Shown: piece after piece, positions 8,831-36,174 of the stretch
Layout: each line of letters begins with the position of its first letter
How positions within the stretch are numbered: position 1 is the stretch's first letter
From: an uncultured Lachnospiraceae bacterium
GTDB lineage: Bacteria > Bacillota > Clostridia > Lachnospirales > Lachnospiraceae
DNA length: 36,356 nucleotides
Direction: 5' to 3'
NCBI GenBank assembly: GCA_946538525.1
Contig: CAMNGU010000011.1
Span: 1-36,356 of the forward strand
Notes under the pieces: model-generated
The model's database searches: none
What the model saw: the letters and a program-made list of their open reading frames with translations, nothing else
Told to the model about the DNA's origin: nothing
Position numbers and translations under genes: made by a program

Positions 8831-8872
8831 ATATGAAGAAATAAAATATGAAGAAATAAAATATGAATAAAT
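8831..8872 (+). repeat. 15-nt tandem repeat carrying in-frame ATG-AAG-AAA-TAA units at a start site
   Basis: ATATGAAGAAATAAA occurs at 8831-8845 and 8846-8860, with a partial third copy ATATGAATAAAT at 8861-8872. The third copy supplies the ATG (8863) of the next gene. Each full unit reads ATG AAG AAA TAA in the same frame, so two minimal upstream frames precede the real start. Confidence 0.85.
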
Positions 8873-11800
8873 ATCGTATGAAAAAACTTCATAAAGTAAT
8901 CCTGCAGTTGATGCTTATTTCTGCTTATCCTGCAGTATTTCATGCTGTGGCTTTTCTGGGAAATGGCAATATGTATAAGCCTGATAGTATGGCTGAAATG
9001 AAATTCCCAATAGCTACTTTTTTGGTGTTTGCAATCTTACTTGTAGCTACTTTTGTTACATTTATAATGGCAAAGTTGGCAGAAAAGAGAGCGAAAATCA
9101 TAGAGGACAGTGAAAATTTACAAAGCGGAAAACTAACGGCGAATTTAGCTCATACCACAAGTAAGCTGATAGCTGAAAACTCTGAAGAAAAGTTTCGTGA
9201 AGTTGTAAAAGCTCATGAGACACCTGATGAGAAGAAAAAGAGGAGAAGAAAGGCTATTAGAAGAAAGGTTCCGATTATTTTACTTTTAGTAATAAGTGTT
9301 GCTTTAAGGCTCCCGATGATTGGAACATTTCAAAGATGGGATGCAGGAGAATACTTCTACACCATAGGAACTTCAGTGCAGGATTATACATTTACCCTGT
9401 CGGACTTTCTGTATAATTTCTCAGTTGCTTATCATCTGAATTACGGATTTACAAGTTTCATCGCAATACCGCTATTTATAAATGCGAGAAGCGTTGAGGC
9501 TGTTACCATATGGCAGATCGTATTTTCAATCCTGGCGATACTTGCGTTATATCAGATTTTTAGAACTGATTTTGGATTTAGACGGTCAAAGTCTGCAGTA
9601 GGCGCATTGATGGTTGGAAATGTACCAATATTCCTGGGACTTTCAGCGTATTGTACACCAGACTATTATGTGGTTTTGTTCTTTATATTTGCGCTTTATT
9701 TTGAGGCGAAGAAACTTCATATATTAGAAGCTTTCATGATCCTTATGATGTGCTTTACGAAGGAAAATTCGGCGCTTATTGTATTTGGCTACTATGGAGT
9801 GAAGATTCTTTACAGATTCATAATAGCTGGAAAGCTTGTTGGACAGAGAAAAGCAATTTTAAATAATATTTCTAAAGCAAAGAGTAGTAAAGAATCTGCT
9901 ACGGATTTAAAAGAAGATTATAGCGATGATTATAGTGAAGATTATAACGAAGATTATAGCGAAGAATCAGAAGATGATTATGGAGAATCAGAGAATGATT
10001 CTAAAAAATCAAAACTGAGAGTAACATTTATTGAAAGACTTAAAATTGTAGTATGTTCTAAAGATTTCTGGGTTGCACTTACTACAGGAGCTGTATTTGT
10101 TGCTGCTATGGGTGTAATGGGCTCTAGTTGGGCTGATAAGCTTAATTCTACAACTATTGCACCAGATGGTATTGCGCCTACAGGATTAACCCTTGAAAAA
10201 CCTTATGTTTATTTCAAGTTGAAGCAGTTTTTTGGTTCGAATTATGCATGGCTCATATCTCTATATTTTCTTCATGCATTTAAAAATATAGTGGTTGAAA
10301 GACTATGGAAGAATCTTAGACATAAAGGCTGGATGACATTTTGTGGACTGATGGGCTCGATGTTCTTCTTCCTGGTTTTTGGTCTTGTATATCATATAGC
10401 TGCAATTGAAAGATATAACATTTTCTTTGCGATTGCTTTAGCCTTTATTTGTGCCATAATTCTTGGAACGGATCTAAATAGTAAATGGTCCTATGCGATT
10501 CTTGGTGGAATTCTAGCAATTCTTCTAGGTGTCGAGAGTTTTATAACCATAGATCCAATGACAAAGTGGCTGTTTGAACAGGTTTCCATTGGAAATGGAA
10601 GAACAATGAATTTTGAAAGTGAATTTACTGAATACTTTGGTGATGGTCTAGTTACAAATTATCAATATGCTTGGATAGACAAATCATTTGATAAATTCCT
10701 TGATGATATTGATTACAATACTGACAAAGCAATCTACTTCCCGGATGAGGAAAGTGGAATGAAGTCAGGAGTCCAGTTTGAAGGAAATGGCGGATATTTC
10801 CGAATTGGATGGTTCCCGGAAAAGAGGAAGCGCGGTTATTATGATTACAATATGTCGGATTGGGAAGAACTGTATATCTGCAGAATTTTCTCTGATAATA
10901 CATGGTTCCCTTATGTCTATGTTCCTTACACAAGAAATGTGACTACAGAATATATGAAGGATCAGTCTTATGTTTGTTTTATTCCTTACTATAAGGAATT
11001 GGGAGTGAACGAAGAGTACTATAAAAATGTTCTAAGCGAATACTATTATTTAGGCAGCGAGGAACAGTCGGAAGCTTATCGTGGAGCTATAAGTTATTAT
11101 CCTATGCTAAAAAAGGATTTGTATTCAGGTGGACTTAGCATGGATATGGTAATTGATGAGCTTAGGGCTAGTCAGAATGAGAGTAACCCGGATGCTCAAA
11201 GACAAAAAAATGTTACCAAGACTGAGATAAGCGAAGCTGCCGAGAGGCTTGCCATGTTAAAAAAGTCTGAATATCTGGTTGTTGCTGAAATGAATGAGGT
11301 TGACAGAACAAAAATTCAGGCGATGGATAGTATCATTCTCTCTGTTCAAATGTTTGATTCAGATGGTAAGAAGATTAAATTAGAGCATGAAGATGAAGAC
11401 ATGGTAGTAAGTGTTGGTACAGGGACTTTAGTAGATGAAGTAGATAAAGCTCTTCAGTCAATGGAATGTGGCGAAGTAGCAGATGTGGAGTTCAAGGTTC
11501 CAGAAGGATATCCAGAACTGGAAGAATATGCAGGAAAATCTGTAATTGCAAAGATTAGTCCACAGGAAATTGTTTGTAGTCTTGAATACAGTATTGAGCA
11601 GGAAGATATTGAAGCTATAGAAGCGTATGCCCGCGATGAGGCAAATGAGTATTTTGACAGATTGAAAGCAAAACAGTGGGTTCGTGGATATATATATCGA
11701 AATGGTACAGAAAATCTGACTAGTATGGTTTCTGAAGAAGAAATAGAAGAGGTAAGAGTGTACTATTACGAATATCTTGAAGGAGTCAATAAGACTAGAG

Positions 11801-11892
11801 ATGAATTTGAGGCCTGGATTGGTGCTACTCCAGAGGAATATGAGCAGGCATTGGCAGTAATAGCGGCCTATGCGAAATGGAGTGGAAAGTAA
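8863..11892 (+). CDS. Polytopic GT-C-like membrane glycosyltransferase with C-terminal trigger-factor-type PPIase domain
   Basis: A 1009-residue membrane protein. Hydrophobic helices start near residues 10, 47 and 133, the last after a KKKRRRKAIRRK basic patch, with more up to about 560. QRWDAGEYF after the third helix suits the catalytic Asp loop of GT-C enzymes, and MCFTKENSALIVF is typical of GT39-like proteins. Residues 347-384 form an acidic tandem region (EDYSDDYSEDYNEDYS). About 450 residues after the last helix should be extracytoplasmic. Within them, about 812-902 (MDSIILSVQMFDSDGKKI...VGTGTLVDEVDKALQSMECGE...VPEGYPELEEYAGK) read as an FKBP/trigger-factor PPIase, followed by a helical tail. 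Expected role: transfer of a lipid-linked sugar outside the cell. The ribosome site is weak (GAAGAAA, inside a repeat). Confidence 0.75.
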   Translation: MNKYRMKKLHKVILQLMLISAYPAVFHAVAFLGNGNMYKPDSMAEMKFPIATFLVFAILLVATFVTFIMAKLAEKRAKIIEDSENLQSGKLTANLAHTTSKLIAENSEEKFREVVKAHETPDEKKKRRRKAIRRKVPIILLLVISVALRLPMIGTFQRWDAGEYFYTIGTSVQDYTFTLSDFLYNFSVAYHLNYGFTSFIAIPLFINARSVEAVTIWQIVFSILAILALYQIFRTDFGFRRSKSAVGALMVGNVPIFLGLSAYCTPDYYVVLFFIFALYFEAKKLHILEAFMILMMCFTKENSALIVFGYYGVKILYRFIIAGKLVGQRKAILNNISKAKSSKESATDLKEDYSDDYSEDYNEDYSEESEDDYGESENDSKKSKLRVTFIERLKIVVCSKDFWVALTTGAVFVAAMGVMGSSWADKLNSTTIAPDGIAPTGLTLEKPYVYFKLKQFFGSNYAWLISLYFLHAFKNIVVERLWKNLRHKGWMTFCGLMGSMFFFLVFGLVYHIAAIERYNIFFAIALAFICAIILGTDLNSKWSYAILGGILAILLGVESFITIDPMTKWLFEQVSIGNGRTMNFESEFTEYFGDGLVTNYQYAWIDKSFDKFLDDIDYNTDKAIYFPDEESGMKSGVQFEGNGGYFRIGWFPEKRKRGYYDYNMSDWEELYICRIFSDNTWFPYVYVPYTRNVTTEYMKDQSYVCFIPYYKELGVNEEYYKNVLSEYYYLGSEEQSEAYRGAISYYPMLKKDLYSGGLSMDMVIDELRASQNESNPDAQRQKNVTKTEISEAAERLAMLKKSEYLVVAEMNEVDRTKIQAMDSIILSVQMFDSDGKKIKLEHEDEDMVVSVGTGTLVDEVDKALQSMECGEVADVEFKVPEGYPELEEYAGKSVIAKISPQEIVCSLEYSIEQEDIEAIEAYARDEANEYFDRLKAKQWVRGYIYRNGTENLTSMVSEEEIEEVRVYYYEYLEGVNKTRDEFEAWIGATPEEYEQALAVIAAYAKWSGK
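9910..9995 (+). repeat. 12-nt coding repeat encoding acidic EDYS/EDYN units
   Basis: Within the 1009-residue gene, GAAGATTATAGC-type 12-mers repeat about four times and then degrade, encoding EDYSDDYSEDYNEDYSEES. The period is a multiple of three, so copy number can change without breaking the frame. The tract falls in a loop between hydrophobic helices. Confidence 0.75.
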
Positions 11893-15089: not shown

Positions 15090-16553
15090 ATGAACAAGAA
15101 AAAACTACTACGAATTCTGTTCGTAGTAATAATAATCATTCTTAATTTAATAATTTTTTGGAAGATAGATTTTTCCGATATTGACACCAAGGGTGTTTCA
15201 TTTGTGATGGAGATGGCTTCGAATAAAGATGATGAATATCAGATTTATTACACTAAGGTGGGCGAGGATTTTAGCGAAGCAGCCAGCAAGAAGGTGTTTT
15301 ACGATGGCTTTGCAAATGGAACAGATGTAACAACCATAGAAAATGATACTGAAAGCATTACTGTAGGAAAAAAACAAACCCTAAGATTTGATTATCCAAT
15401 AGAATATGATAATCTTCGTCTTGATTTTGGCCAGTATGCAGGAAATACAGTTATTTATGATATGTATTTTGAGATGTCTGGAGTAAAATATCAGATACCT
15501 ATGGAGCAGATTCAAAATGAGAAGAATGCTCCAAGCATTCTGTCTAGAATATTGATGGAAAAGGAAGGACAACAGTGTCTGGTAGTAAATGCAGAAGCTG
15601 GAGATCCAAACATGCTTATTCAGTTCCATAAGGATCAGCTTTTGGAACAGTATAGAGAAGCAAATAGACAGAATACGCTTATTTTAGATATTGCAATATG
15701 TGTTGTTATGGATTTTATTGCAATCTATGTACTTCTGCACTTTTATTCTTTGATTGATATTCCAGTACAGATTTATCAGAATAGAAAGCTGGCTTTAACA
15801 CTTGCTAAAAATGATTTCAAGACAAAATATGCAGGTTCATATCTTGGTATGATATGGGCATTTATACAGCCGGTGGTTACCATTTTGGTTTATTGGTTCG
15901 TCTTTTCAGTAGGTTTAAAGGCTGGTAATGAGGGAGACTACCCATATGTTCTTTTCATTGTGGTAGGTATTATTCCTTGGTTCTTCTTCTCGGATTCACT
16001 TAATGGAGGAACCAATGCAATGACAGACTATAACTATCTGGTTAAAAAGGTGGTATTCAATATTGATATCCTTCCATTTGTGAAGGTATTATCAGCATTT
16101 TTCGTGCATTGTTTCTTTATTGCATTTGCACTGATCCTCTGTACTTGTATGGGACATCATCCAACCATCTATACGGTTCAGCTTATATACTACATATTCT
16201 GTAACTTCGTGTTTGTACTGGGGCTTTCATATCTTAGCTCTGCAATAGTAGTATTCTTCCGAGATTTAGGGCAGTTTATAAATATATTTATCCTGCAGGT
16301 GGGTGTATGGCTTACACCTATTATGTGGAATGCAAATAAGATGCTTAGTCCAACTGCGCTTAAGTTATTTAAGATAAATCCAATGTTCTATATTGTCAGT
16401 GGATTCAGGGACAGCGTTCTGGATAAGAACTGGTTCTGGACAGGAGACAGACTCCTTTGGACCATTTATTTCTGGATTATCACAATATTGGTATTTGGAC
16501 TGGGAGTAAAAATATTTAGAAGATTGAAGATACATTTTGCAGATGTATTGTAA
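15090..16553 (+). CDS. ABC-2 polysaccharide export permease (Wzm-like) with an added N-terminal extracytoplasmic domain
   Basis: The permease of a glycan ABC exporter, paired with the Wzt ATPase downstream. The C-terminal part (about 225-487) is a complete Wzm/TagG unit: an amphipathic QIYQNRKLALTLAKNDFKTKYAGSYLGMIW stretch, then about six helices including VGIIPWFFFSD and VFFRDLGQFINIFILQVGVWLTPIMW. Normal Wzm proteins are about 260 residues; this one has 487. The surplus is a TM helix (7-24), about 170 residues predicted outside the membrane with strand-like repeats (LRLDFGQYAGNTVIYDMYFE), and a second helix (195-222). I do not know a named family for that domain. The ribosome site is weak (GAGAGAAAA). 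Permease identity is secure; the role of the extra domain is open. Confidence 0.9.
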   Translation: MNKKKLLRILFVVIIIILNLIIFWKIDFSDIDTKGVSFVMEMASNKDDEYQIYYTKVGEDFSEAASKKVFYDGFANGTDVTTIENDTESITVGKKQTLRFDYPIEYDNLRLDFGQYAGNTVIYDMYFEMSGVKYQIPMEQIQNEKNAPSILSRILMEKEGQQCLVVNAEAGDPNMLIQFHKDQLLEQYREANRQNTLILDIAICVVMDFIAIYVLLHFYSLIDIPVQIYQNRKLALTLAKNDFKTKYAGSYLGMIWAFIQPVVTILVYWFVFSVGLKAGNEGDYPYVLFIVVGIIPWFFFSDSLNGGTNAMTDYNYLVKKVVFNIDILPFVKVLSAFFVHCFFIAFALILCTCMGHHPTIYTVQLIYYIFCNFVFVLGLSYLSSAIVVFFRDLGQFINIFILQVGVWLTPIMWNANKMLSPTALKLFKINPMFYIVSGFRDSVLDKNWFWTGDRLLWTIYFWIITILVFGLGVKIFRRLKIHFADVL

Positions 16554-16560
16554 ATAAAAT

Positions 16561-16592
16561 ATAATTCTGAGGCTTTTGGCTGAAGAATTTTA
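16561..16592 (+). repeat. TCATCCTGAG-type hairpin, copy 6
   Basis: ATAATTCTGAGGCTTTTGG is followed by CTGAAGAATTTTAG. AATTCT (16563-16568) and AGAATT (16584-16589) are perfect arms. The hairpin touches the AGGTGA ribosome site of the ATPase gene, so folding could limit its translation. Confidence 0.6.
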
Positions 16593-16602
16593 GGTGAAAA
16601 TC

Positions 16603-17955
16603 ATGTCAGAAGATATAGCAATTAGAATAAATGATGTTTCAAAACTGTATAAGCTTTACGATAAGCCTACTGACCGGTTGAAGGAGTCTTTGGGACTTAC
16701 CAAGGCCAAGAAGTATAAGGAGCATTTCGCTCTTCGCAATGTGAGTTTTGATGTGAAGAGAGGTGAATGCGTAGGAATAATTGGAACTAATGGTGCTGGA
16801 AAGTCTACTATCCTGAAAATCATAACTGGAGTTCTAAATCCTACTGCCGGAGAGGTTACTATAAATGGCCGTATCTCTGCTCTTCTAGAGTTAGGAGCCG
16901 GCTTCAATATGGAATATACAGGTATAGAAAATGTTTATCTAAATGGTTCCATGATTGGATTTAGTCGTGAGGAAATTGATGCAAAATTACAGGATATACT
17001 TGATTTTGCTGATATAGGTGATTTTGTAAATCAGCCTGTAAAGACTTACTCATCAGGTATGTTTGTAAGACTTGCCTTTGCGGTGGCAATCAATATTGAA
17101 CCAGAAATACTTATAGTTGATGAAGCACTTTCAGTAGGTGATGTTTTCTTCCAGCTGAAATGCTTTAAAAAGTTTGAGGAATTTAAGCAGCAGGGAAAAA
17201 CTATTCTCTTTGTAAGTCATGATCTTTCAAGTATAGAGAAGTATTGTGACAAGGCAATTCTTCTGGATCATGGTAGAAATGTTGGAGAAGGAACTCCAAT
17301 TGATATCATAAATAAATATAAGAAGATAATGACAGGAATGACTGTCGAAGAAGTTGAAGAGCAGGAAAAGAGGAAAGCTGAGCTTAGAGATTTAGTAGCT
17401 GAGGACTCAGAAAATTCTGAAAATAAAGAGGAATTAGAAGAGGCTAAAACCAGTACTTTTTCACTTACACCAGAGGTTCCTTGGAAAGAAAGCTTTGATC
17501 TAAATCCAAATCTTGATGAATATGGAGATATGGGTGCCAAGATTATTGATATCGGTGTGTTTGATGAAGATGAAAATCTTACAACCACAATAATAAAGGG
17601 CGGTAAATTTACATTAAGATCAAAGATAGAATTTAAAACAGATATAGAAGATCCTATTTTTACATACACCTTTAAGACACTTAAAGGCCAGGATATTACA
17701 GGTACAAATACCATGTATGAAAAAGCAGGAGTAGGAATTGCCCATGCAGGGGATATATTTGTGGCAAGTTTTACACAGGAGATGAACCTGCAGGGAGGAG
17801 AATATCTGCTCTCTATGAGTTGTACAAGTTTTGTAAATGGCGATCTTGTAGCTCATGACAGACTCTATGATGTATTAAATATCACGGTTGTGTCGGACAA
17901 GAATACTGTGGGATTCTATGATATGAATTCCAAGGTTAAAATTGATAAATTATAG
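16603..17955 (+). CDS. Polysaccharide ABC transporter ATPase with C-terminal glycan-binding domain (Wzt-like)
   Basis: The 450-residue product powers the adjacent permease. Walker A is GTNGAGKST (61-69), the signature is YSSGMFVRLAFAVA, Walker B ILIVDEALSVGD and the switch His LFVSHDL. The N-terminal YKLYDKPTDRLKESLG is typical of glycan exporters. After a charged linker (about 245-280) a beta-rich C-terminal domain follows (about 290-450: DMGAKIIDIGVFDEDENL...GDIFVASFTQEMNLQGGEYLLSMS). In Wzt of polymannan systems this domain reads the modified chain end before export. Its presence predicts a terminal modification, and a methyltransferase and kinase-like gene follow directly. I start at ATG 16603, since AGGTGA overlaps the track's GTG at 16594. 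Confidence 0.94.
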   Translation: MSEDIAIRINDVSKLYKLYDKPTDRLKESLGLTKAKKYKEHFALRNVSFDVKRGECVGIIGTNGAGKSTILKIITGVLNPTAGEVTINGRISALLELGAGFNMEYTGIENVYLNGSMIGFSREEIDAKLQDILDFADIGDFVNQPVKTYSSGMFVRLAFAVAINIEPEILIVDEALSVGDVFFQLKCFKKFEEFKQQGKTILFVSHDLSSIEKYCDKAILLDHGRNVGEGTPIDIINKYKKIMTGMTVEEVEEQEKRKAELRDLVAEDSENSENKEELEEAKTSTFSLTPEVPWKESFDLNPNLDEYGDMGAKIIDIGVFDEDENLTTTIIKGGKFTLRSKIEFKTDIEDPIFTYTFKTLKGQDITGTNTMYEKAGVGIAHAGDIFVASFTQEMNLQGGEYLLSMSCTSFVNGDLVAHDRLYDVLNITVVSDKNTVGFYDMNSKVKIDKL

Positions 17956-25554: not shown

Positions 25555-26520
25555 ATGGCAATTTCAAATAAAACAGTATCTATAATATTACTTTCCTATA
25601 GAAATCTTGAAGGGATATATGAGACTTTAGATAGCATTTTTATTCAGGATTATCCAGAAATAGAGGTGGTTCTCTCCGATGATGGAACACCAGAGTTTAA
25701 TCAGGAAGAACAGCGCTTAAGAGAATATATAGAGAAGAATAAAAAGAATAATACTAAAAATGTAATATTCAATCATCTGGAAGTAAACCAGGGGACTGTT
25801 AAAAATATAAATAGTGGTATCAAAAAATCTTCCGGAGGATATGTTAAGCTGATTTCTTCAGAGGATGTGTTAGCTGATCCTTCATCCCTAGCTAATTATG
25901 TGGCATATATGGATGAGAAGGATGCATATATTGTTTTTGGTAAGATGAGGGGAGTGACCAAGGAAGGCATTTATAAGGATGAGCTTCTTGCCTGTGAATC
26001 AGATTATGATCTGCTAAAGTCCTATAATCTGAAACAGCAGAGAGACAGACTTTTTGCCAGAAACTTCCTTCCGGCACCAGCTGCATTTTTCAGAAGAGAT
26101 GTGTTTGATAAGTGCGGAATGTTTGATGAGGATATCCGACTAATCGAGGATTATCCATATTGGATAAATCTTACCAAGCATCGTGTAAAGTTTGAATATC
26201 TGGATAAGGTTACTGTGTTATACAGGTTATCCGGAGTATCCAGCGCAGGCTCATATAGTGAAATGTTTATGGAAGATATGTTTGTAATATATGATAAGTA
26301 TATCTTCCCATATGACAAGAGATTTAAAGCTTTTCAGAAGCCATATAATGCATTAAAAAGAGATGGACTTACTTTCTATATGGAGAAAGCAAGGCTTAAA
26401 AAATATAAGGGGCTTAGAAAAACTTGGGTATATATTAGATATTCACCATACTTTGTCTATACAAAGCTTTTAGATTTAAAGGTGGATGCTAAGAATAAGA
26501 AAAGTAAGAGGAATAGTTGA
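25555..26520 (+). CDS. GT2-family glycosyltransferase
   Basis: The product is 321 residues and soluble. VSIILLSYRNLEGIYETLDSIFIQDYPEIEVVLSDDGT is a standard GT-A start with the nucleotide-binding SDDG. The usual D-x-D is represented by LISSEDVLADP. FDKCGMFDEDIRLIEDYPYW matches the acceptor-side E-D-x-x-x-W catalytic region of inverting GT2 enzymes, and TVLYRLSGVSSAG follows. Donor and acceptor are unknown; being directly upstream of the amino-sugar genes, it may use their product. The stop overlaps the next ATG (TGATG), so the two are translationally coupled. The Shine-Dalgarno for its own start is weak. Confidence 0.88.
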   Translation: MAISNKTVSIILLSYRNLEGIYETLDSIFIQDYPEIEVVLSDDGTPEFNQEEQRLREYIEKNKKNNTKNVIFNHLEVNQGTVKNINSGIKKSSGGYVKLISSEDVLADPSSLANYVAYMDEKDAYIVFGKMRGVTKEGIYKDELLACESDYDLLKSYNLKQQRDRLFARNFLPAPAAFFRRDVFDKCGMFDEDIRLIEDYPYWINLTKHRVKFEYLDKVTVLYRLSGVSSAGSYSEMFMEDMFVIYDKYIFPYDKRFKAFQKPYNALKRDGLTFYMEKARLKKYKGLRKTWVYIRYSPYFVYTKLLDLKVDAKNKKSKRNS

Positions 26521-26927
26521 TGGAAATAAATACTATAGATTTTGAAGAACATGGTGATGACAGAGGTACTCTTGTAGCTGTTGAACAGTTGAAGAATCTA
26601 CCTTTTGAGATAAAAAGATGTTACTACATGTATGATACCAAGCCTGGAGTAAGGAGAGGATTTCATGCCCATAAAGCCTTAAAACAGGTTTTACTTTGTG
26701 TTCATGGTAGTTGCAAGATTCTTTTGGATGACGGAACTGAAAAAGCAGAGGTTCTACTCGATAAGCCTAATCATGGGCTTGTTATCGAGTCAAATATATG
26801 GAGAGAAATGTTTGATTTTAGCGAAGATGCAGTGCTGATGGTTCTTGCATCTGAACTATATGATGAAGCTGATTATATTAGAAATTATGATGATTTTATT
26901 AAATATGTAAATGAAAAGGAGAATTAA
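26520..26927 (+). CDS. dTDP-4-keto-6-deoxyhexose 3,4-ketoisomerase (FdtA/QdtA type)
   Basis: This 135-residue small cupin moves the keto group of dTDP-4-keto-6-deoxyglucose from C4 to C3. [23 protein letters not shown] and the family motif [14 protein letters not shown] with its active-site histidines are clear, followed by [13 protein letters not shown]. The length equals that of FdtA/QdtA/WxcM-type isomerases. Whether it yields the galacto or gluco isomer (Fuc3N or Qui3N route) cannot be told by eye. I start at ATG 26520, eight nucleotides after AAGAGG; the track's TTG at 26517 is less likely. The aminotransferase follows after five nucleotides. Confidence 0.9.
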
Positions 26928-26932
26928 GTATA

Positions 26933-28021
26933 ATGAATATTCAATATACTGATTTTGCAAAAATGCATGATCCAATTAGAGAAAAACTGGATGCCGCTTA
27001 TAAAGAGGTTATGGATTCAGAGTGGTTCATCGGTGGAAAACAGGATGAAGCATTTGAAAAAGAATTTGCCCAGTGGTGTGGTTCGAAATATTGTATAGGC
27101 GTTGGTAATGGACTTGACGCACTTAGACTAATCCTTCAGGCTTATAATATAGGTGAAGGTGACGAGGTTCTTGTTCCATCAAATACTTTTATAGCAACTG
27201 TGCTTGCTATATCATATGTTGGGGCGAGACCTGTTTTTGTTGAACCGGATATTGATACATTTCTTATTACTCCAGAGGAAACTGCAAAGAAGATCACTCC
27301 GAAAACTAAAGCCATTATGGTGGTTCATCTTTATGGCCGACTTGCAGATATGGAGGGATTTGTAAGCTTAGCAGAGAAGAACAATCTTCTCCTGTTTGAA
27401 GATACAGCTCAGGCTCATGGTGCAATGCATAATGGTAAAAAAGCTGGAACCTTTGGAAAGGCAGGTGCTTTTTCATTTTATCCAGGAAAAAATATTGGTG
27501 CCCTGGGAGATGCTGGTGCTGTAGTTACAGATGATAAGGAATTAGCTGATAAGATAAGAGCCTTAGGTAATTATGGTTCTACAAGAAAATATAAGCATGA
27601 TTATATAGGGGTTAATTCAAGACTTGATGAATTCCAGGCTGCATTCCTAAGAGTAAAGCTTCCTGTTCTAGATGAGTGGACAAAGGAACGACAGAGAATA
27701 GCTGATATATATTATGACAAGATTCATAATGATAAAATAGTTCTTCCAAAGTATACAAAGGAAAATGTGTATCATATATTCCCTGTACTTTGTGAAACAA
27801 GAGATGAATTACAGAAATATTTAGAAGATGAAGGAATTCATACTTTAATCCACTATCCAATTGCGATCCATTTACAGGAATCCTATGCTGATCTGGGATA
27901 TGGAAGAGGAGATTTTCCTTTAGCGGAAAAGATAGCAGATCAGGAACTTAGTATTCCACTATATCCTGGAATGAGTAGTGAAGAGATAGAATATGTTATT
28001 AAAGCATTAAATGAGTTTTAA
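26933..28021 (+). CDS. dTDP-3-keto-6-deoxyhexose aminotransferase (FdtB/QdtB type, DegT family)
   Basis: A 362-residue PLP enzyme of the DegT/DnrJ/EryC1/StrS family. [41 protein letters not shown] (cofactor Asp) and [17 protein letters not shown] (Lys186, the Schiff-base lysine) are all present, as is [12 protein letters not shown]. It aminates the 3-keto sugar made by the ketoisomerase directly upstream. AAGGAG precedes ATG 26933. With the GNAT gene that follows, it defines a route to a 3-acetamido-3,6-dideoxyhexose (Fuc3NAc or Qui3NAc). Confidence 0.93.
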
Positions 28022-28082
28022 ACATATTTCGTAATTAGATGTTGCTTCAGGTATTGAAATAGATACAGATAAATAATGATAG

Positions 28083-28107
28083 ATAAATAGGACAAATAAA
28101 TAGGATA
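28083..28107 (+). repeat. 13-nt tandem repeat containing the ribosome-binding site
   Basis: ATAAATAGGACA (28083-28094) recurs 13 nt later as ATAAATAGGATA (28096-28107); only the second AGGA is at a useful distance (7 nt) from ATG 28113. The upstream part of the same 91-nt spacer carries related GATAAATAATGATA sequence. Confidence 0.7.
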
Positions 28108-28112
28108 AAAAA

Positions 28113-28643
28113 ATGATAAGAAATCTTAGAATGGAAGATGCTCCTGCAATGTTTGAATGGATGCATGACGAGAATGTAGTCCGTAATCTTCAGGCAGATT
28201 TTATGAGTTTTGGAATGGATAAGGTTAATGCGTTTATCCAGGCAAATTTTGAACCTGATATGGATGGCGATAATGTTAATTATGCCATTTGTAATGAAGA
28301 AGATAATTATGTAGGAACTATCAGTTTAAAGAATATAGATAGAAAGAATAAAAATGCAGAATATGCAATAGTTACTGGAAGCAAGGCACATGGGAAGGGT
28401 TACGCTAAACTTGCAACCATGGATATTCTAAAGGTGGCATTTGAAGAACTGAAGCTGGAAAGAGTTTATCTTTATGTTTCAGTAAATAATATTCCAGCAA
28501 ATAAATTTTATCAGAAGATGCATTTTGTTGAGGAAGGGGTTTTTAGAAAACATCTAATGATAGATGGAGAATTAAGAGATATTAGGTGGTATAGCATATT
28601 ACATGAAGATTATCTTCGTATGAAAGAAGAAAATGAAAGATGA
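28113..28643 (+). CDS. GNAT acetyltransferase (RimJ/RimL-like), probable amino-sugar N-acetyltransferase
   Basis: A 176-residue GNAT protein. IRNLRMEDAPAMFEWMHDENVV is the usual N-terminus, NAEYAIVTGSKAHGKGYAKLATMDIL contains the acetyl-CoA loop (Q/R-x-x-G-x-G/A in the form KAHGKGYA), and LYVSVNNIPANKFYQKMHFVEEGVFRKH completes the fold. After an FdtA/FdtB pair the expected enzyme is FdtC/QdtC, a left-handed beta-helix acetyltransferase. Here a GNAT occupies that place, so a replacement of that step is likely. An unrelated acetylation target is possible. Confidence 0.82.
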   Translation: MIRNLRMEDAPAMFEWMHDENVVRNLQADFMSFGMDKVNAFIQANFEPDMDGDNVNYAICNEEDNYVGTISLKNIDRKNKNAEYAIVTGSKAHGKGYAKLATMDILKVAFEELKLERVYLYVSVNNIPANKFYQKMHFVEEGVFRKHLMIDGELRDIRWYSILHEDYLRMKEENER

Positions 28644-28655
28644 GAATAAAAGAAA

Positions 28656-29951
28656 ATGAATATGCTTAGCAAATTATTGTTTGGTAATAGTGAAAATATT
28701 TCGAAGAGAGTTTACTTTTGGAATCTTTGTTCCAGCATGGTGTATAGTTTTCAATCTGCTATATTACTCCTTGTTGTAACCAGAGTAGGGGGCTTGGTAG
28801 AAGGAGGTATATTCTCTATTATTTATACAGTAACTCAGACTCTGGCTTCACTTGGAAGTTATTCCATGAGAAATTATCAGGTATCTGATGTTAAAGATGA
28901 TTATAATTTTGAAACATATTACACTTCCAGAGTAGTAACATGTGTACTTATGATTCTTTCCTGCGTAGTCTATGCAATTTATAAGGGCTCCAGTATAGAT
29001 AAATTTTTTATAATCATACTATTTTCGTTATATAGAACGGTTGATGGCTTTGAGGATGTATATCATGGAGCGGTTCAAAAGCTGGGAAGACTGGATGTTG
29101 TTTCCATAGCTATGACATTTAGGATAACCCTGTCTATGGTTATGTTTTCAGTACTTTATGTAATCACACATAATTTATTGATTGCTTCAGTTGGAATGGT
29201 AATTACGGCAGTTGCACTTTTACTAGGATTCAATAAGATAATTTTTTCCGAATTTACAGAGATTAAAAGAGGAATCGATTTTAGCAAAGTATTTAAATTA
29301 CTTACAGTATGTTTCCCTATATTTTTAGGAGCAATTTTATATAATTATCTGGTGAATGTTCCTAAATATTCTATAGATAATAATCTTGGAGAAGCAACAC
29401 AAACCATATTTAATATTCTTTTTATGCCGGTATTTGTTGTTAATATTTTGAGTATGTTTATCTTTAAGCCTATGGTTAACCAGATGGGAATATGGTGGAA
29501 AGATGGAGAGATAAAGAAACTTTTATTCTCTGTAATAAAGCAGATACTGATCATAGGTGGACTTACTATATTAGTGATAATTGGCGGATATTTTTTAGGA
29601 TGCCCTGTTTTGGGAGCGGTTTATAGCGTTGATCTGTCAGATTATCCATTATTCTTTGCAATGCTTCTTTCCTTTGGAGGAATCGCAGCATTATCAACTT
29701 TCCTCAGTGTGGTACTTACTATTATGAGGAAGCAGGCTTTTATAATCTTAGGCTATGTTCTTGGTTATATTGTTAACCTGTTTATAACTGATAGATTAGT
29801 TATACAATATAAGATAAGTGGAGCCGGATACGCTTATGGAATTATAATGGGCGTGGTTCTTATAGTATTTATAGTAGTTGCAGGAATAAATTTTGTTATT
29901 CGATATAATGAGGTGAAGAATGGTAGAGTTATTAAAGAAGATTTATCATAA
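28656..29951 (+). CDS. MOP-superfamily polysaccharide flippase (Wzx-like)
   Basis: The product is 431 residues with about twelve hydrophobic helices. VYFWNLCSSMVYSFQSAILLLVVTRVGG opens the first helix in the manner of O-antigen flippases, and RNYQVSD follows the second helix as in the Wzx/RfbX group. It would flip an undecaprenyl-linked oligosaccharide outward, making a second exporter besides Wzm/Wzt. The ribosome site is poor (AAAGAAAA). It begins 12 nt after the GNAT stop, and its last 32 nt overlap the next gene, so expression is coupled. The family is clear; its substrate is unknown. Confidence 0.87.
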   Translation: MNMLSKLLFGNSENISKRVYFWNLCSSMVYSFQSAILLLVVTRVGGLVEGGIFSIIYTVTQTLASLGSYSMRNYQVSDVKDDYNFETYYTSRVVTCVLMILSCVVYAIYKGSSIDKFFIIILFSLYRTVDGFEDVYHGAVQKLGRLDVVSIAMTFRITLSMVMFSVLYVITHNLLIASVGMVITAVALLLGFNKIIFSEFTEIKRGIDFSKVFKLLTVCFPIFLGAILYNYLVNVPKYSIDNNLGEATQTIFNILFMPVFVVNILSMFIFKPMVNQMGIWWKDGEIKKLLFSVIKQILIIGGLTILVIIGGYFLGCPVLGAVYSVDLSDYPLFFAMLLSFGGIAALSTFLSVVLTIMRKQAFIILGYVLGYIVNLFITDRLVIQYKISGAGYAYGIIMGVVLIVFIVVAGINFVIRYNEVKNGRVIKEDLS

Positions 29952-31227
29952 ATTTGCCCATTTTACTATAGTAAAGAAAATGGGAGAATTATATTTATTA
30001 GGCACACCGATTGGAAATATTAGAGCATATAATGAGTTAAAAAAAATAAATAAAAATAGGAAGACATTGACTAGGTGTCAAACTGTTTCTGGAGAAGGTG
30101 TTACAGATAGAAAAATTAGAGTTGCATTTATTGGGCAAAATATTCAAGTTTGGGGAAAAATAGCTCCTGTTTATGAAAAACTAATTCATGATCCGCGATT
30201 TGTTGTAAGATTATATGCAGTTAAGGATATAGTTGATGGAAATAGTAATAAAACATATGAATATTTTGCAGGACAATACAACAATGTAATAGCGGTTGAT
30301 GAAACTGGATCGTGTGCTCAAGATAAAGATTTAAAAGATTTTAAACCGGATTATGTATTTCTCACTAGACCATATGACCAATATCTACCGAAAAATTATA
30401 GAAGTGATGTAATTGCAAAGTATTCAAAGGTTTGTTATTGCAGTTATACATTCATACTGACTTATACAAATTTAAATGATTGTTATAGTAAAATATTTGC
30501 AAGAAATGTTAGCATATTTTTTGCAGATAATAAATTTATGAGAAATAGAAATATTCGACGGTTTAGCAAGGCTCATTCTGAGGGGATAATGAAATCTGTT
30601 TTTCTTGGATATCCCATAATGAGTAATCTGTCGAAAAAAATAGAAAAAGAAGAAAACTCAAAGCTGTCAATTCTTTGGACTCCAAGATGGTCTCAATCTG
30701 CGGAGACTGGTGGCGGAAATATGCTGAAATATAAAGATGCTATTGTCGAATATGCTAGAAAACGCGATGACATAAGACTGATATATAGACCGCATCCATT
30801 GGCGTTTCATCATTTTGTTGAAACTGGAGAGATGACGCAGCAAGAGGTGGATGAGTATCTTTCTATTTATACAGGTGATAAATTCGTATATGATAATGAA
30901 GCAGAGTATATAATTTCTTTTGCAAATGCAGATATACTTCTTTCTGATATTTCATCTATGATATGCGAGTTTTATATTACAGGAAAACCTATTGTATATT
31001 GTGATACGGGGGCAAAAACACTTCCTGTTATGGATAGGCTTCTTGAGGGATGTTATATTACAAAAACATGGAAAGAAGTTGAAGATACAATAGAGAAGTT
31101 GCGTACGGGAGAAGATCCACTTAGGAGTACGCGAGCTGAAATTGCTAAAGAAGTATTTGGTGATAATTTATCTCGTATTCCGGATAGGTTTGTTGAGTAT
31201 ATTGTAAAGGATTTTAGAAAAGGATAA
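29920..31227 (+). CDS. CDP-glycerol glycerophosphotransferase-like (TagB/TagF) transferase
   Basis: A 435-residue protein. IYRPHPLAFHH (near 291) and ILLSDISSMICEFYITGKPIVYCD (near 341) correspond to the pHP and TDYSS...FDF...KPI motifs of TagB/TagF enzymes, which transfer a phospho-alcohol from a CDP donor. An N-terminal Rossmann-like half (KIRVAFIGQNIQVWGKIAPVYEKL...) is also typical. No glycerol-phosphate cytidylyltransferase is nearby; a different cytidylyltransferase follows after 13 nt, so the donor may be its product. GAGGTGA (29910-29916) lies inside the flippase gene and drives ATG 29920 (32-nt overlap). The region from here to 34.1 kb is visibly more AT-rich than the rfb block. A diverged glycosyltransferase role is the alternative. 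Confidence 0.75.
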   Translation: MVELLKKIYHKFAHFTIVKKMGELYLLGTPIGNIRAYNELKKINKNRKTLTRCQTVSGEGVTDRKIRVAFIGQNIQVWGKIAPVYEKLIHDPRFVVRLYAVKDIVDGNSNKTYEYFAGQYNNVIAVDETGSCAQDKDLKDFKPDYVFLTRPYDQYLPKNYRSDVIAKYSKVCYCSYTFILTYTNLNDCYSKIFARNVSIFFADNKFMRNRNIRRFSKAHSEGIMKSVFLGYPIMSNLSKKIEKEENSKLSILWTPRWSQSAETGGGNMLKYKDAIVEYARKRDDIRLIYRPHPLAFHHFVETGEMTQQEVDEYLSIYTGDKFVYDNEAEYIISFANADILLSDISSMICEFYITGKPIVYCDTGAKTLPVMDRLLEGCYITKTWKEVEDTIEKLRTGEDPLRSTRAEIAKEVFGDNLSRIPDRFVEYIVKDFRKG

Positions 31228-31240
31228 ATTGGAGGTATAT

Positions 31241-33055
31241 ATGCAGGCAGTTATTCTTGCGGCTGGAATGGGAAAAAGACTAAAGGAACTTACCCATGAT
31301 AACACAAAATGCATGATTAAGGTTAATGGTGTAACATTAATTGAAAGAATGCTTGGACAAATTGATAAACATCATTTATCAAGAATTATAATTGTTGTAG
31401 GATATGAAGGTGAAAAATTAAAAGAATATATTTCTACTCTTAATATAAGTACTCCAATTGAGTATGTTGATAACCCGATATATGATAAAACTAACAATAT
31501 ATATTCGTTGGCGCTTGCAAAGGATTATCTGGCGTCAGATGATACTCTTCTTTTTGAATCTGATCTGATATTTGAAGATTCGCTTATTGATGAGCTTCTT
31601 AATGATTCTAGAGATACCCTTGCGTTGGTTGATAAATATGAAAGCTGGATGGATGGGACATGTGTAAAAATTTCTGAAAATGATGATATTGAAGCATTTG
31701 TTCCTGGAAAGAAGTTTAAATTTAATGAAATTAAAGATTATTACAAGACTGTAAATATATATAAGTTTAGCAAGCATTTTTCAGAAACGCATTATGTTCC
31801 ATTCCTTGATGCATATCAGAAAGCACTTGGATTAAATGAATATTATGAGCAGGTTCTCAGAGTGATTACCATGCTAGATAATCCAGAAATTAAAGCTAAG
31901 AGATTATCTGGACAGAAATGGTATGAGATAGATGATATTCAGGATTTGGATATTGCTGAATCTATCTTTAGTCCTGATGATGATGAAAGGGTTAAACTTA
32001 TACAAGGAAGATATGGCGGTTATTGGAGATACCCAAAATTGCTTGATTTCTGTTATCTAGTTAACCCATATTTTCCTCCGGAAAAGATGAAAGATGAGAT
32101 TAGAGCGAATTTTGATACATTGCTTACGGAATATCCATCAGGGATGCGTGTGAATTCTCTACTTGCTGCCAAAAATTTTGGCGTTCATCAGGAAAATATT
32201 ATTGTTGGAAATGGTGCTGCTGAGCTTATTAAGTCATTGATGGGATATTTAGAGGGAAAGGTAGGTTTTATAAGGCCAACTTTTGAAGAATATCCTAATA
32301 GATATGACAGGAATAATTCGATAGATTTTATTCCTAATAATAATGATTACTCTTATTCAGCTGAAGATATAATTGAATATTTTGAAGATAATAGAATTGA
32401 TAACTTAATCATAATTAATCCTGATAATCCGAGTGGGAATTATATATCAAAAGAAGGATTACTTAAGCTAATTAATTGGACGAAAGACAAAAGTATAAAA
32501 CTTGTTATCGATGAATCTTTTGCAGATTTTTCTGATGAATTAGATAATACACTAATAGATCAGGGGATTCTATCATCAAATCCGCACCTTTTTGTTATGA
32601 AGAGTATTTCAAAGTCTTATGGTGTTCCAGGATTAAGACTAGGTGTTCTAGCATCAGGTGATGAAAAAATAATTGCAAAAATGAAAAAGGATGTTGCTAT
32701 TTGGAATATTAATTCCTTTGGTGAATTCTATTTACAAATAGAGGAAAAATATAAGAAAGATTATGAAGAAGCTTTAGTGAAGTTTAGAACTGAGAGAAAG
32801 CGATATGAAAAGGAATTAGAAAGAGTTAAAGGAGTTAGAGTTATTTCATCTCAGGCAAACTTTGTTATGGTGGAATTGGATGAGGATATTTCTCCAAAGG
32901 ATTTATTAAAGATAATGCTTATTAAGCATAATATTCTTATCAAAGAATTAACAACAAAGACAAATGGCAGAAATTATCTAAGGCTTGCTGTTAGAGATAA
33001 AAAAGATAATGATTATCTTGTCTCGAAATTCTTACTAGAATTGGGAGAAAAATAA
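31241..33055 (+). CDS. LicC-like nucleotidyltransferase fused to a class I/II aminotransferase
   Basis: Two enzymes in one chain of 604 residues. Residues 1 to about 245: AVILAAGMGKRLKELTHDNTKCMIKVNG is a nucleotidyltransferase P-loop of the LicC (phosphocholine cytidylyltransferase) kind, with LLFESDLIFED as the metal site. Residues about 255-604: a fold-type I PLP enzyme of HisC/CobD style with VGNGAAELIKSL, INPDNPSGNYI, LVIDESFADF and MKSISKSYGVPGLRLG (Lys458). A comparable fusion known to me is PntC joined to 2-aminoethylphosphonate transaminase. The product may be a CMP-linked amino-phosphate or phosphonate for the TagF-like transferase upstream. I start at ATG 31241 after GGAGG (31231-31235). 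Substrates are not identifiable by eye; no PEP mutase gene is in the window. Confidence 0.83.
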   Translation: MQAVILAAGMGKRLKELTHDNTKCMIKVNGVTLIERMLGQIDKHHLSRIIIVVGYEGEKLKEYISTLNISTPIEYVDNPIYDKTNNIYSLALAKDYLASDDTLLFESDLIFEDSLIDELLNDSRDTLALVDKYESWMDGTCVKISENDDIEAFVPGKKFKFNEIKDYYKTVNIYKFSKHFSETHYVPFLDAYQKALGLNEYYEQVLRVITMLDNPEIKAKRLSGQKWYEIDDIQDLDIAESIFSPDDDERVKLIQGRYGGYWRYPKLLDFCYLVNPYFPPEKMKDEIRANFDTLLTEYPSGMRVNSLLAAKNFGVHQENIIVGNGAAELIKSLMGYLEGKVGFIRPTFEEYPNRYDRNNSIDFIPNNNDYSYSAEDIIEYFEDNRIDNLIIINPDNPSGNYISKEGLLKLINWTKDKSIKLVIDESFADFSDELDNTLIDQGILSSNPHLFVMKSISKSYGVPGLRLGVLASGDEKIIAKMKKDVAIWNINSFGEFYLQIEEKYKKDYEEALVKFRTERKRYEKELERVKGVRVISSQANFVMVELDEDISPKDLLKIMLIKHNILIKELTTKTNGRNYLRLAVRDKKDNDYLVSKFLLELGEK

Positions 33056-34136
33056 TGAAGGTTACTGTTGTAGGCGGAGGAAATATAGGAACACAATTTG
33101 CAGTACATGCTGCAGAAAGTGGATATGAAGTGACCATATATACTTCAAATCCTGAAATATATGATGGACATCTTGAGATTGTTGATGAGAATGGAGAGAT
33201 AACACATGAAGGTAGGATAGAATGTGTAACATCAGATCCCGTTGAAGCTTTTGAAGATGCGGAATTAATTATGGTTACTTACCCTTCGGATTTAATGGAC
33301 AGCATTTCCGGTGTTATTTATAAATATTCCAGAGATGATGCAATAATAGGTGTTGTGCCTGGAAATGGTGGTAGTGAGTGTGCGTTAAAAAATGCATAGA
33401 ACAGGGAAATATCTTTTTTGGGATTGAAAGGGTTCCTGCCATTGCTCGACTGGTAAAAAAAGGAAGAACTGTAAGATCAACAGGATATAGAAAGGAACTT
33501 CATATTGCATCTATTCCCTGTAAAGAGGCAGAAAAATGTGCGAATATAATAGCTGACATTTATAAGATGTCATGTGGAATAATTCCAAATTTTCTCAATC
33601 TAACAATGACTCCTTCAAACCCTATATTGCATACAACAAGACTTAGGACTATATTCAAAGATTGGAAAGATGGTATAATATATAGTGGCTTGCCTTTATT
33701 TTATGAAGAATGGGATAATGCAAGTTCGGAGTTACTTTTTAAATGCGATGAAGAAGTACAAGATATTTGTAGAGCGCTTCCAGAGTATAATTTACAATTT
33801 GTAAAGTCATTAAAAGAACATTATGAAAGCTTTACCATAGAGGAAATGACTAGGAAAATATCAAGTATAGATGCCTTTAAAGGATTAAAGACACCAGCGG
33901 TGATGTTGAATAGTGGTGGATTAATTCCAGATCTGCATTCTCGATATTTTACAGCAGATTTTTCGTTTGGATTAGCAATCATAAAGCAAATTGCGGATAT
34001 GGCTGGGGTTAGTACTCCTAATATTGATGATACATTGGAATGGTATGATAATATAGCCATCATGAAAAAGTGTTTTAAGTATTCCGATTATGGAATAAGA
34101 GAGAGGAATGATTTTGATGAGTTGTATTTGTTGTAA
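33055..34136 (+). pseudogene. Octopine/opine dehydrogenase family gene broken by a -1 frameshift in an A tract
   Basis: Two ORFs (33055-33399; continuation to 34136) together make a normal opine dehydrogenase of about 360 residues. The first holds the Rossmann start KVTVVGGGNIGTQFAVHAAESGYEV and VVPGNGGSECALK. The second continues CIEQGNIFFGIERVPAIARL and holds the helical domain with TPSNPILHTTRL and AVMLNSGGLIPDLHSRYF. One extra A in the six-A run near 33387-33392 would fuse them exactly. Such enzymes join an amino acid or amine to a 2-keto acid using NAD(P)H. The start overlaps the upstream stop (TAATG). It may be truly inactive, phase-variable, a sequencing error, or rescued by -1 slippage (A_AAA_AAT). 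It is probably a partner of the fusion enzyme upstream. Confidence 0.85.
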
Positions 34137-34569: not shown

Positions 34570-36174
34570 TTATCGAAGTGATATGCATTTTTCTATTCCT
34601 TTTCCTTTTGTGTATCGGAATAGCTTGACGAAATTTAAGGCGCCAATTTTAAAGCCGAAGAACTGTTTAGTTCTCAGCTTTCCTCTTACTGGCATCTTAT
34701 CAACATTGTATTTGCTTCGCATTATTGATGGAACGGTTTCAACTTCATTTCTTATGCAACCTACAAGTTGATATGTTTCGTCTTCATGTCGTTCTCGTAA
34801 TCGATGTATGTATTCACTTGATTTCTTTGAGACAAATTTACATGCAGTTCTTGTTTTTATATCAGGATTACATTTATCTTTATGCGGACAGTTTTCACAT
34901 TGTTCTCTTTCAAAAGATATCTTGATATTTCCGTTCTGACATATATAATTATTACTTTTGGGTGTATAACCATTCGGACAAGTAATTACAGAAGTACCAT
35001 CCTCAGTGAAGGTGAAATCTCCAAGGATTTCATTTGGTGTCTTTCCAGACAAACCAGTAGTTATAAGGCCTATATTCTTATCAGCAGCTAACTTTCTTGC
35101 TTCTTCACTGTCATAAGCACCATCAGCTATAAGTGCTATAGTGTCTTCTTGAACAGGTGCTTCTTCCAGGTATTCTTTTATGAACTTGGAATCACTATGA
35201 GTATTTACATCATACTGATAATCGGATATAACAGAACCGTTTTCATCAACTGTTTCAATTATGTTTGCAGCATATCCTCTATGATTCTTTCCTGCTTTGC
35301 TTCTGAATGTTGCTTCCGGATCGGAAGGATTCTGTAAAACAGAAGAATCCATTGAATCATTTTTATCTTTTTGAACGCGTTTTGAATCATCGGCAGGATC
35401 AGGCTTTGTTTGTTCACCAATAGCTCTTAGTAGAAGTTGATAATCTTTGTTATCTGCATAGTATTTCTCACACAGTTTTATTAGATCAGATGCATCATCT
35501 ATAACTGTTTGAAGTTTATCCTTTGCGGATGTTTCTTTATCATGATATACAACCTTGTTTCGATTATTTGAATCATGATAATGATTGAATTTTTCAGGAA
35601 GATTTAACACACCATCTTCATATATAGCATTTACAAGATTGGCAAGGCATGTATAAAGTAGTTCAAGCCTTCCCATACATCTGATATTTGATTCTATCAT
35701 CATACTGTCCATTCGTTTTATGGAACCATCAAGATTCATATATTCAGCAATGTATTTTGAAAGCTTTATAATGCATTCATGTATCAGATCAGTTCCGGTA
35801 AGAAGTTCATAAGCGGCACATCTGGATTTGAATCTGCTAAATGTTCTATCGCTAATAGGCTGTTCTTCAAAGCTTATTGTATGAAGAGCATACTGAAATC
35901 GGAAATCAAACTCCATTGATTCGACTATTTCATCATCTGTCAGTCCTGTAAATTCTTTAAGAATCAAAGCTCCTATAATAACATTAATCGGAGCATTTGG
36001 CCGAGAGCTTGTATGCTCGCTGAAAAGAGGAGCAAATATGTACTCATCGATATTCAGAAAAATATGATCTGAAAATGCTTTAGCCCAGGAATTCTCTAAC
36101 ATGCGTTTTTTACGATCGGACGGGAAGTGAAATGAATCGAATAATGATAGTTGCAGATTAGCTTTAAAAGACAT
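34570..36174 (-). CDS. IS1182-family transposase
   Basis: This 534-residue transposase appears intact. The N-terminal DUF772-like part reads RPNAPINVIIGALILKEFTGLTDDEIVESMEF with FRFQYALH and ISDRTFSRFKSRC. The DDE core has MDSMMIESNIRC for the first Asp and ALIADGAYDSEEARKLAADKNIGL for the second. A Cys cluster (REQCENCPHKDKCNP) precedes the C-terminal RSKYNVDKMPVRGKLRTKQFFGFKIGALNFVKLF. Length and layout fit IS1182. GAGGTG (36180-36185, minus strand) is correctly spaced for the ATG. A minus-strand TATAAT (36211-36216) is the likely -10 box. It is convergent to the glycan operon, so read-through from the operon would be antisense to it. Confidence 0.93.
   Translation of the reverse strand: MSFKANLQLSLFDSFHFPSDRKKRMLENSWAKAFSDHIFLNIDEYIFAPLFSEHTSSRPNAPINVIIGALILKEFTGLTDDEIVESMEFDFRFQYALHTISFEEQPISDRTFSRFKSRCAAYELLTGTDLIHECIIKLSKYIAEYMNLDGSIKRMDSMMIESNIRCMGRLELLYTCLANLVNAIYEDGVLNLPEKFNHYHDSNNRNKVVYHDKETSAKDKLQTVIDDASDLIKLCEKYYADNKDYQLLLRAIGEQTKPDPADDSKRVQKDKNDSMDSSVLQNPSDPEATFRSKAGKNHRGYAANIIETVDENGSVISDYQYDVNTHSDSKFIKEYLEEAPVQEDTIALIADGAYDSEEARKLAADKNIGLITTGLSGKTPNEILGDFTFTEDGTSVITCPNGYTPKSNNYICQNGNIKISFEREQCENCPHKDKCNPDIKTRTACKFVSKKSSEYIHRLRERHEDETYQLVGCIRNEVETVPSIMRSKYNVDKMPVRGKLRTKQFFGFKIGALNFVKLFRYTKGKGIEKCISLR

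Follow-up and report, generated by a model that had tools for sequence, protein, structure and literature searches.

What surface decoration might be specified by three closely packed genes at the end of a glycan gene cluster is the question raised by a locus of an uncultured Lachnospiraceae bacterium. The window, that is, the whole stretch of DNA analysed, comprises 36,356 nt of contig CAMNGU010000011.1 (assembly GCA_946538525.1, forward strand), and its source is a metagenome-assembled genome with a completeness of 80%. The genes encode a TagF-like transferase, a nucleotidyltransferase (NTase) fused to a pyridoxal phosphate (PLP)-dependent enzyme (hereafter the fusion) and an opine dehydrogenase. 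A preliminary description of the locus had proposed that their products aminate a small phosphorylated or phosphonate compound, activate it with cytidine monophosphate (CMP), condense its amine with a keto acid and transfer it to the glycan. Our analysis revealed that the association of these genes is real, recurrent and beyond chance. On balance, we favour the view that the module makes a CMP-activated aminoalcohol phosphate, which would be N-carboxyalkylated in relatives with an intact dehydrogenase and attached to the surface glycan. The case is built on the order and homology of the genes, the conservation of residues, the way in which the genes co-occur and partners are swapped, and the lack of the phosphoenolpyruvate mutase gene (pepM); from these findings we infer each chemical step, the identity of the substrate and the keto acid.

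In the window, the terminal operon consists of genes for a flippase, the TagF-like transferase, the fusion and the dehydrogenase, in this order and all on the plus strand. These genes overlap or nearly touch: the TagF-like gene starts at 29920, upstream of the flippase end at 29951, and base 33055 is common to the stop codon of the fusion gene and the ATG of the dehydrogenase gene. Relatives were represented by the best 80 of 447 fusion loci obtained from one genome scan (69–81% identity), and this set is therefore biased toward close kin. Most of their hosts are Lachnospiraceae, Oscillospiraceae or Erysipelotrichaceae; some belong to Treponema and Bullifex. When adjacency was defined as location on the same strand within 200 bp, a PF02317 dehydrogenase gene was found to adjoin the fusion in 27 of the 80 loci, whereas PF02317 was found in none of 14 control genomes; the association is beyond chance for this reason. 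Only three of the 30 dehydrogenase open reading frames (ORFs) recorded in these loci lie farther than 200 bp from the fusion. In a second sample, which covered the class more evenly (391 genomes), 11 other genomes contained the fusion, some of which overlap the 80-locus set; among the ten with usable flanks, three have the dehydrogenase alongside and three a PF02423 gene (one on the opposite strand). Rare co-occurrence of the three families, which the preliminary description had named as fatal to its proposal, thus does not hold for the fusion and the dehydrogenase. All three families are found together less often, since many relatives have LicD, which is adjacent to the fusion in 18 of the 80 loci, or another transferase instead of the TagF-like protein.

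The fusion (31229–33055; 608 amino acids; Pfam NTP_transf_3 and Aminotran_1_2), whose translation more probably begins with the ATG at 31241, yielded an AlphaFold (AF2) model with a predicted local distance difference test (pLDDT) score of 82. Its NTase domain (31241–31981) is of the LicC/PntC type and carries the motifs G13xGxR17...K27, E110-S-D112 and W-Y-E233-I-D235, which provide the nucleotide signature (G-x-G-x-R...K) and the acidic metal ligands. The motif residues, G13, R17, K27, D112, E233 and D235 among them, are invariant across the 80 aligned sequences, gaps aside. The best solved relatives of the domain are PntC-AEPT of T. denticola (6pd1) and LicC (1jyk), not sugar-1-phosphate enzymes; a plain sugar-1-phosphate enzyme was the other outcome that the preliminary description had named as refuting it. 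The E110-S-D112 motif agrees with that of PntC, in which Glu104 touches the amine of 2-aminoethylphosphonate (AEP), whereas LicC has Asp105 instead (PMC6697681). By alignment, the candidate counterparts of PntC Glu196 in the fusion are E204, Y206 or E207. All these features fit a predicted cytidylyltransferase that would use CTP to activate a phospho-amine.

The PLP domain (31985–33052) is of fold type I, resembles phosphoserine/threonine-phosphate (Ser-P/Thr-P) decarboxylases and contains the Schiff-base lysine K462, W492-N-I-N495 and R585-x-A-x-R589. Its sequence matched the solved structures 6oux with 164 bits (E=4.5e-47), 3ftb with 120 bits and CobD (1lc5) with 90 bits (E=1.8e-24). The title of the 6OUX structure names SMUL_1544, a decarboxylase; its substrate is L-serine-O-phosphate. 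In the structural comparison of the AlphaFold model, 6OUX (Z 33.3) and CobD (Z 33.1) ranked above HisC-named enzymes (at most 32.1), with small gaps between these scores. Motifs of the W-N-I-N and R-x-A-x-R types are common to the fusion and the decarboxylases, whereas plant HisC has YNVS and RVSVG. The best NCBIfam match was TIGR01140, the CobD equivalog, with 165.6 bits, which is under its curated cut-off of 290.55. The domain belongs to Aminotran_1_2 (class I/II) and not to class V, that of the AEP transaminase. Taken together, the sequence and model comparisons suggest that it is probably a Ser-P or Thr-P decarboxylase rather than a plain transaminase. The LicC-like cytidylyltransferase–aminotransferase of the preliminary description is thus indeed an NTase/PLP fusion, but its PLP part is probably a decarboxylase, which leaves the proposed amination step unsupported.

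The three genes do lie in a tight operon, but the dehydrogenase is not encoded by one intact gene, a point that had been missed. It is split between two frames: a first fragment (33055–33399), which contains the NAD-binding part with the GGGNIG motif (Pfam NAD_Gly3P_dh_N and others), aligns to the N-terminus of intact relatives, and a second fragment in another frame (33378–34136) contains the PF02317 domain (E=2.7e-28; 99.3 bits versus a cut-off of 30). Compared with intact relatives (approximately 359 amino acids), nothing but the frame appears to have been lost. The sequences NPILHT and RYFTAD align with octopine dehydrogenase (3c7a), in which His, Arg and Asp are catalytic, and are present in the second fragment. 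No second PF02317 gene was found in the 80% complete genome itself. An error of assembly, or variation among strains, could account for the break. Another broken copy (L040:5268-6359), interrupted by an in-frame stop, was identified in Erysipelotrichaceae NK3D112, and the same genome contains an intact copy (L020).

In 12 of the 80 loci, the gene adjacent to the fusion encodes instead a reductase of the ornithine cyclodeaminase family (PF02423), which is unrelated to PF02317, and genes of the two families never occur together within 200 bp of one fusion. Loci L025 and L029 share the order LicD, fusion, dehydrogenase, LicC-like protein, amidohydrolase and LicC/A; in L044 the order is unchanged except that a PF02423 enzyme replaces the dehydrogenase, and this also holds for L006, in which LicD is not adjacent. 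The other proteins shared between the two pairs of loci are mostly 60–86% identical, except for one LicD pair (only 30%). The reductase type also differs between sister fusions (L030 versus L031, and L029 versus L044). The PF02423 enzyme matches models of imine reductases, such as SbnB, weakly and below the cut-off, and both families can therefore plausibly reduce the adduct of a keto acid and an amine. Among 42 putative active-site positions of the fusion inspected across the three partner classes, all but a few are identical. The residues inspected thus do not depend on the partner, and the fusion therefore probably makes one product on which the reductases act. A conserved operon consisting of the fusion and its reductase, a LicC-like protein with a winged helix, an Amidohydro_3 amidohydrolase and a LicC/choline-kinase-like fusion was seen in L025, L029, L044, L006 and L075; the amidohydrolase may play some part in supplying phosphocholine or amine.

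The TagF-like transferase (29920–31227) is a divergent protein with a GT-B fold, and its earlier identification as TagB/TagF-like is sustained by PF04464 (E=2.4e-5; 23.9 bits versus a cut-off of 22.1). A LISDxSS-type motif is present in the family profile, aligned with TarL (8va1). For its AF2 model (pLDDT 72), VIA-align placed TagF (3l7i) first with a Z of 21.2, tied within 1 with WecB-type epimerases (20.3), and Foldseek alone ranked WecB-type GT-B enzymes over TagF. In one genome of the same genus (L131), a homologue is located directly 5' of the fusion. In two further genomes of this genus (loci L127 and L124), the homologue is next to genes for a PntC-like protein and an AEP transaminase of the PhnW/AepZ type; the transaminase of L127 is over the TIGR03301 cut-off, and the L124 copy is similar but runs off the contig. 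Both of these genomes (G003 and G082) are pepM-positive. Being found beside either the fusion or AEP genes, the TagF-like family therefore seems to serve two donors, CMP-AEP and cytidine diphosphate (CDP)-ethanolamine, which would differ by one atom.

These components suggest the following pathway. The fusion would decarboxylate O-phospho-L-serine and couple the product to CTP, yielding CDP-ethanolamine; CMP may be added before decarboxylation, as in FrbH of FR-900098 biosynthesis, or after it. The PF02317 or PF02423 enzyme would then use NAD(P)H to join the amine to an alpha-keto acid, most likely pyruvate, giving N-(1-carboxyalkyl)-CDP-ethanolamine. The TagF-like protein, or LicD or other transferases in relatives, is predicted to move the phospho-aminoalkyl group from its CMP-activated form to the glycan. 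In the genome studied here, the frame is broken and the dehydrogenase step may be lost; if the break is genuine, the module is likely to yield plain phosphoethanolamine. Octopine-type dehydrogenases give a D (R) centre, which would fit the (R) component found in Proteus. A compound of the predicted type, N-[(R)-1-carboxyethyl]ethanolamine phosphate, is known from Proteus O-antigens (PMC9630907), and decarboxylation of Ser-P supplies a capsule in C. jejuni (PMC12409886). The preliminary outline of CMP activation of a small phosphorylated amine, condensation with a keto acid and transfer to the glycan thus appears sound, in that the parts fit and the genes belong together. More tentatively, the module may represent a route, so far unrecognised, by which glycans acquire N-(1-carboxyalkyl)ethanolamine phosphate groups: one fused enzyme would make CDP-ethanolamine from phosphoserine, and the unrelated PF02317 and PF02423 enzymes would compete for the next slot and perhaps generate opposite stereoisomers or use different keto acids.

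Several points weigh against the favoured reading. The frame of the dehydrogenase is broken in a run of A at approximately 33387–33392, no reductase of either type adjoins the fusion in about half of the loci, and the dehydrogenase could act on some other amine made by the same operon. Sequence cannot surely separate decarboxylase from transaminase members of this PLP fold. The sequence alignment of the TagF-like protein with PF04464 covers only its C-terminal half, and the TagF-type W-H-G motif was not seen in its sequence. In addition, nine of 40 fusion genomes do have pepM, and distant split homologues in rhizobia adjoin this gene.

The last of these points concern the substrate. A phosphonate module, in which the fusion activates AEP or decarboxylates and activates 2-amino-4-phosphonobutyrate like FrbH, would accord with the agreement of E110 with PntC, with the action of FrbH on L-2-amino-4-phosphonobutyrate (PMC6697681), with the rhizobial homologues and with the pairing of the TagF-like family with AEP genes in relatives. 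However, a search with TIGR02320 detected no pepM in the genome studied here (80% complete), in 31 of the 40 fusion genomes or in nine of the 11 fusion genomes with at least 95% completeness. The pepM-free isolates include Schaedlerella arabinosiphila, Bullifex porci, Bilifractor porci and Butyrivibrio sp. MC2021, VCB2006 and INlla14. A PF13714 match in the genome studied here (30.6 bits) was below the cut-off. A phosphonate, one of the options envisaged in the preliminary description, is therefore not the general substrate, and a phosphonate origin was rejected for most fusion genomes; we regard such a module as highly improbable here, and distant kin such as the rhizobial homologues may use a phosphonate. 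Use of another phospho-amine is a less remote alternative but also unlikely: O-phosphothreonine would lead to CDP-1-amino-2-propanol, or transamination of a triose phosphate to CDP-serinol, with later steps alike. CobD, a Thr-P decarboxylase, is nearly level with 6OUX in the structural comparison and gave the best NCBIfam match, and PLP enzymes of C. jejuni serve both ethanolamine phosphate and serinol phosphate (PMC12409886). Against this, the domain matches the Ser-P enzyme far better in sequence, the CobD score is under its curated cut-off, and phosphoserine is a general metabolite.

The dehydrogenase might alternatively act independently of the fusion, on a sugar-linked amine or a glycan amino acid (alanopine-type amides), their adjacency reflecting only a shared cluster. 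Opine-type amides occur in Providencia O-antigens (PMC10609480), and the gene cluster in the window makes an amino sugar; nevertheless, the 27 dehydrogenase ORFs within 200 bp of the fusion lie in glycan clusters that are otherwise unlike, and the same position can be taken by reductases of an unrelated family, which makes this explanation quite improbable. The evidence is evenly poised as to whether this strain retains the dehydrogenase as a decaying remnant, so that its module adds plain phosphoethanolamine. The broken frame of a single-copy gene, the adjoining insertion sequence (IS), the in-frame stop in L040 and the fusion loci devoid of an adjacent reductase speak for decay, whereas the coding sequence is otherwise well conserved, the catalytic residues are kept, and the break may not be genuine or may vary among strains. 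A remnant in this strain is compatible with N-carboxyalkylation of an aminoalcohol phosphate as the best explanation for the family.

Upstream of the module, a multi-pass membrane protein without Pfam matches (28656–29951) is a probable Wzx-type flippase, and similar proteins are encoded near fusions elsewhere (e.g. L071 and L088). Genes for a glycosyltransferase, an FdtA-like isomerase, a DegT aminotransferase and a GNAT acetyltransferase (25555–28643, plus strand; Pfam profiles) probably direct the synthesis of a dTDP-3-acetamido-dideoxyhexose, and the order FdtA, DegT, GNAT, flippase and TagF is found again in two same-genus loci (L125 and L126). The module differs from the rfb block in composition, as noted earlier (GC content of ~31–34% versus ~36–41%), but the fall begins near 18 kb and not at the module. 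The same glycan cluster encodes an ABC exporter pair (Wzm-like and Wzt with a Wzt_C domain; 15090–17955), which, together with the flippase, gives the impression of two routes of export or of two clusters that have merged; the GC drop fits a junction. An IS1182-type transposase gene (34570–36174, minus strand) is located just 3' of the broken dehydrogenase gene at the contig end, and the region 8863–11892 encodes a 1009-amino-acid protein with an odd pairing of a weak PMT_2-like membrane domain and a C-terminal FKBP-type domain. In other fusion loci, repeated proteins of 840–940 amino acids with a YidC-like insertase and a sulfatase/phosphotransferase-like domain are encoded beside a TagF-like gene (L031:8417-11209, L080 and L084).

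Distant fusions were also seen on plasmids. On Priestia megaterium pBM700 (L097), which lacks pepM, one (32%) lies by genes for an additional DXR homologue and an acetyltransferase of the AAC(3) type, a cluster reminiscent of the fosmidomycin/FR-900098 type. On Erwinia and Rahnella plasmids (L098 and L101), a gene of the CDP-alcohol phosphatidyltransferase family comes after the fusion within a biosynthetic cluster, a neighbourhood that suggests use of a CDP-aminoalcohol in another product.

If the favoured reading is true, genes can be predicted for N-carboxyethyl ethanolamine phosphate, a known O-antigen component for which no genetic explanation was found. Our literature search on the three-gene combination found nothing relevant, and genes for ethanolamine, opine or cytidylyltransferase functions are not mentioned for the Proteus O14 gene cluster in the serotyping paper. 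Many Firmicutes of the rumen and gut, along with some spirochaetes, would then carry charged decorations of an opine-like kind that could matter for host lectins, phages and immunity, and phosphonate tailoring, phosphocholine tailoring and opine chemistry would be joined by one interchangeable CMP-activation logic.

The module, with its chemistry as predicted here, would thus extend known CMP-activation tailoring. It shares with the LicC/LicD phosphocholine pathway the CTP activation of a small aminoalcohol phosphate and, in the 18 loci mentioned, an adjacent LicD, but would use a decarboxylated amino-acid phosphate in place of choline and has an extra reductase and, in the window, a TagF-like transferase. 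Octopine dehydrogenase (3C7A) and CENDH (1BG6) share PF02317 with the module, and the catalytic His, Arg and Asp are kept in intact relatives and in the second fragment; however, the predicted amine partner here is an aminoalcohol phosphate and not an amino acid, and the copy in the window is broken. Of two Ser-P decarboxylases, SMUL_1544 (6OUX) resembles the PLP domain in both sequence and fold, and Cj1436 of C. jejuni is comparable in the use of ethanolamine phosphate in a capsule. These two enzymes, however, are not known to be fused to a cytidylyltransferase and serve cobamide synthesis, or glucuronate amidation without CMP activation. PntC-AEPT (T. denticola Tde1415; 6PD1/6PD2), previously named as the closest precedent, remains an analogue in architecture, since it also fuses a LicC-like cytidylyltransferase to a PLP enzyme, serves surface tailoring and has the E-S-D metal/amine motif. 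However, its match covers only the NTase domain of the fusion, and its PLP domain is a class V AEP transaminase, whereas that of the fusion is of class I/II and decarboxylase-like, and most fusion genomes lack pepM. In FrbH, an NTase is likewise fused to a CobD/HisC-like PLP domain. FrbH transfers CMP to undecarboxylated L-2-amino-4-phosphonobutyrate (PMC6697681), by structure a phosphonate isostere of O-phosphoserine. Although FrbH serves a secreted phosphonate antibiotic and the fusion sits in surface glycan clusters, mostly without pepM, this likeness in architecture and published activity makes FrbH by analogy a closer precedent than PntC-AEPT.

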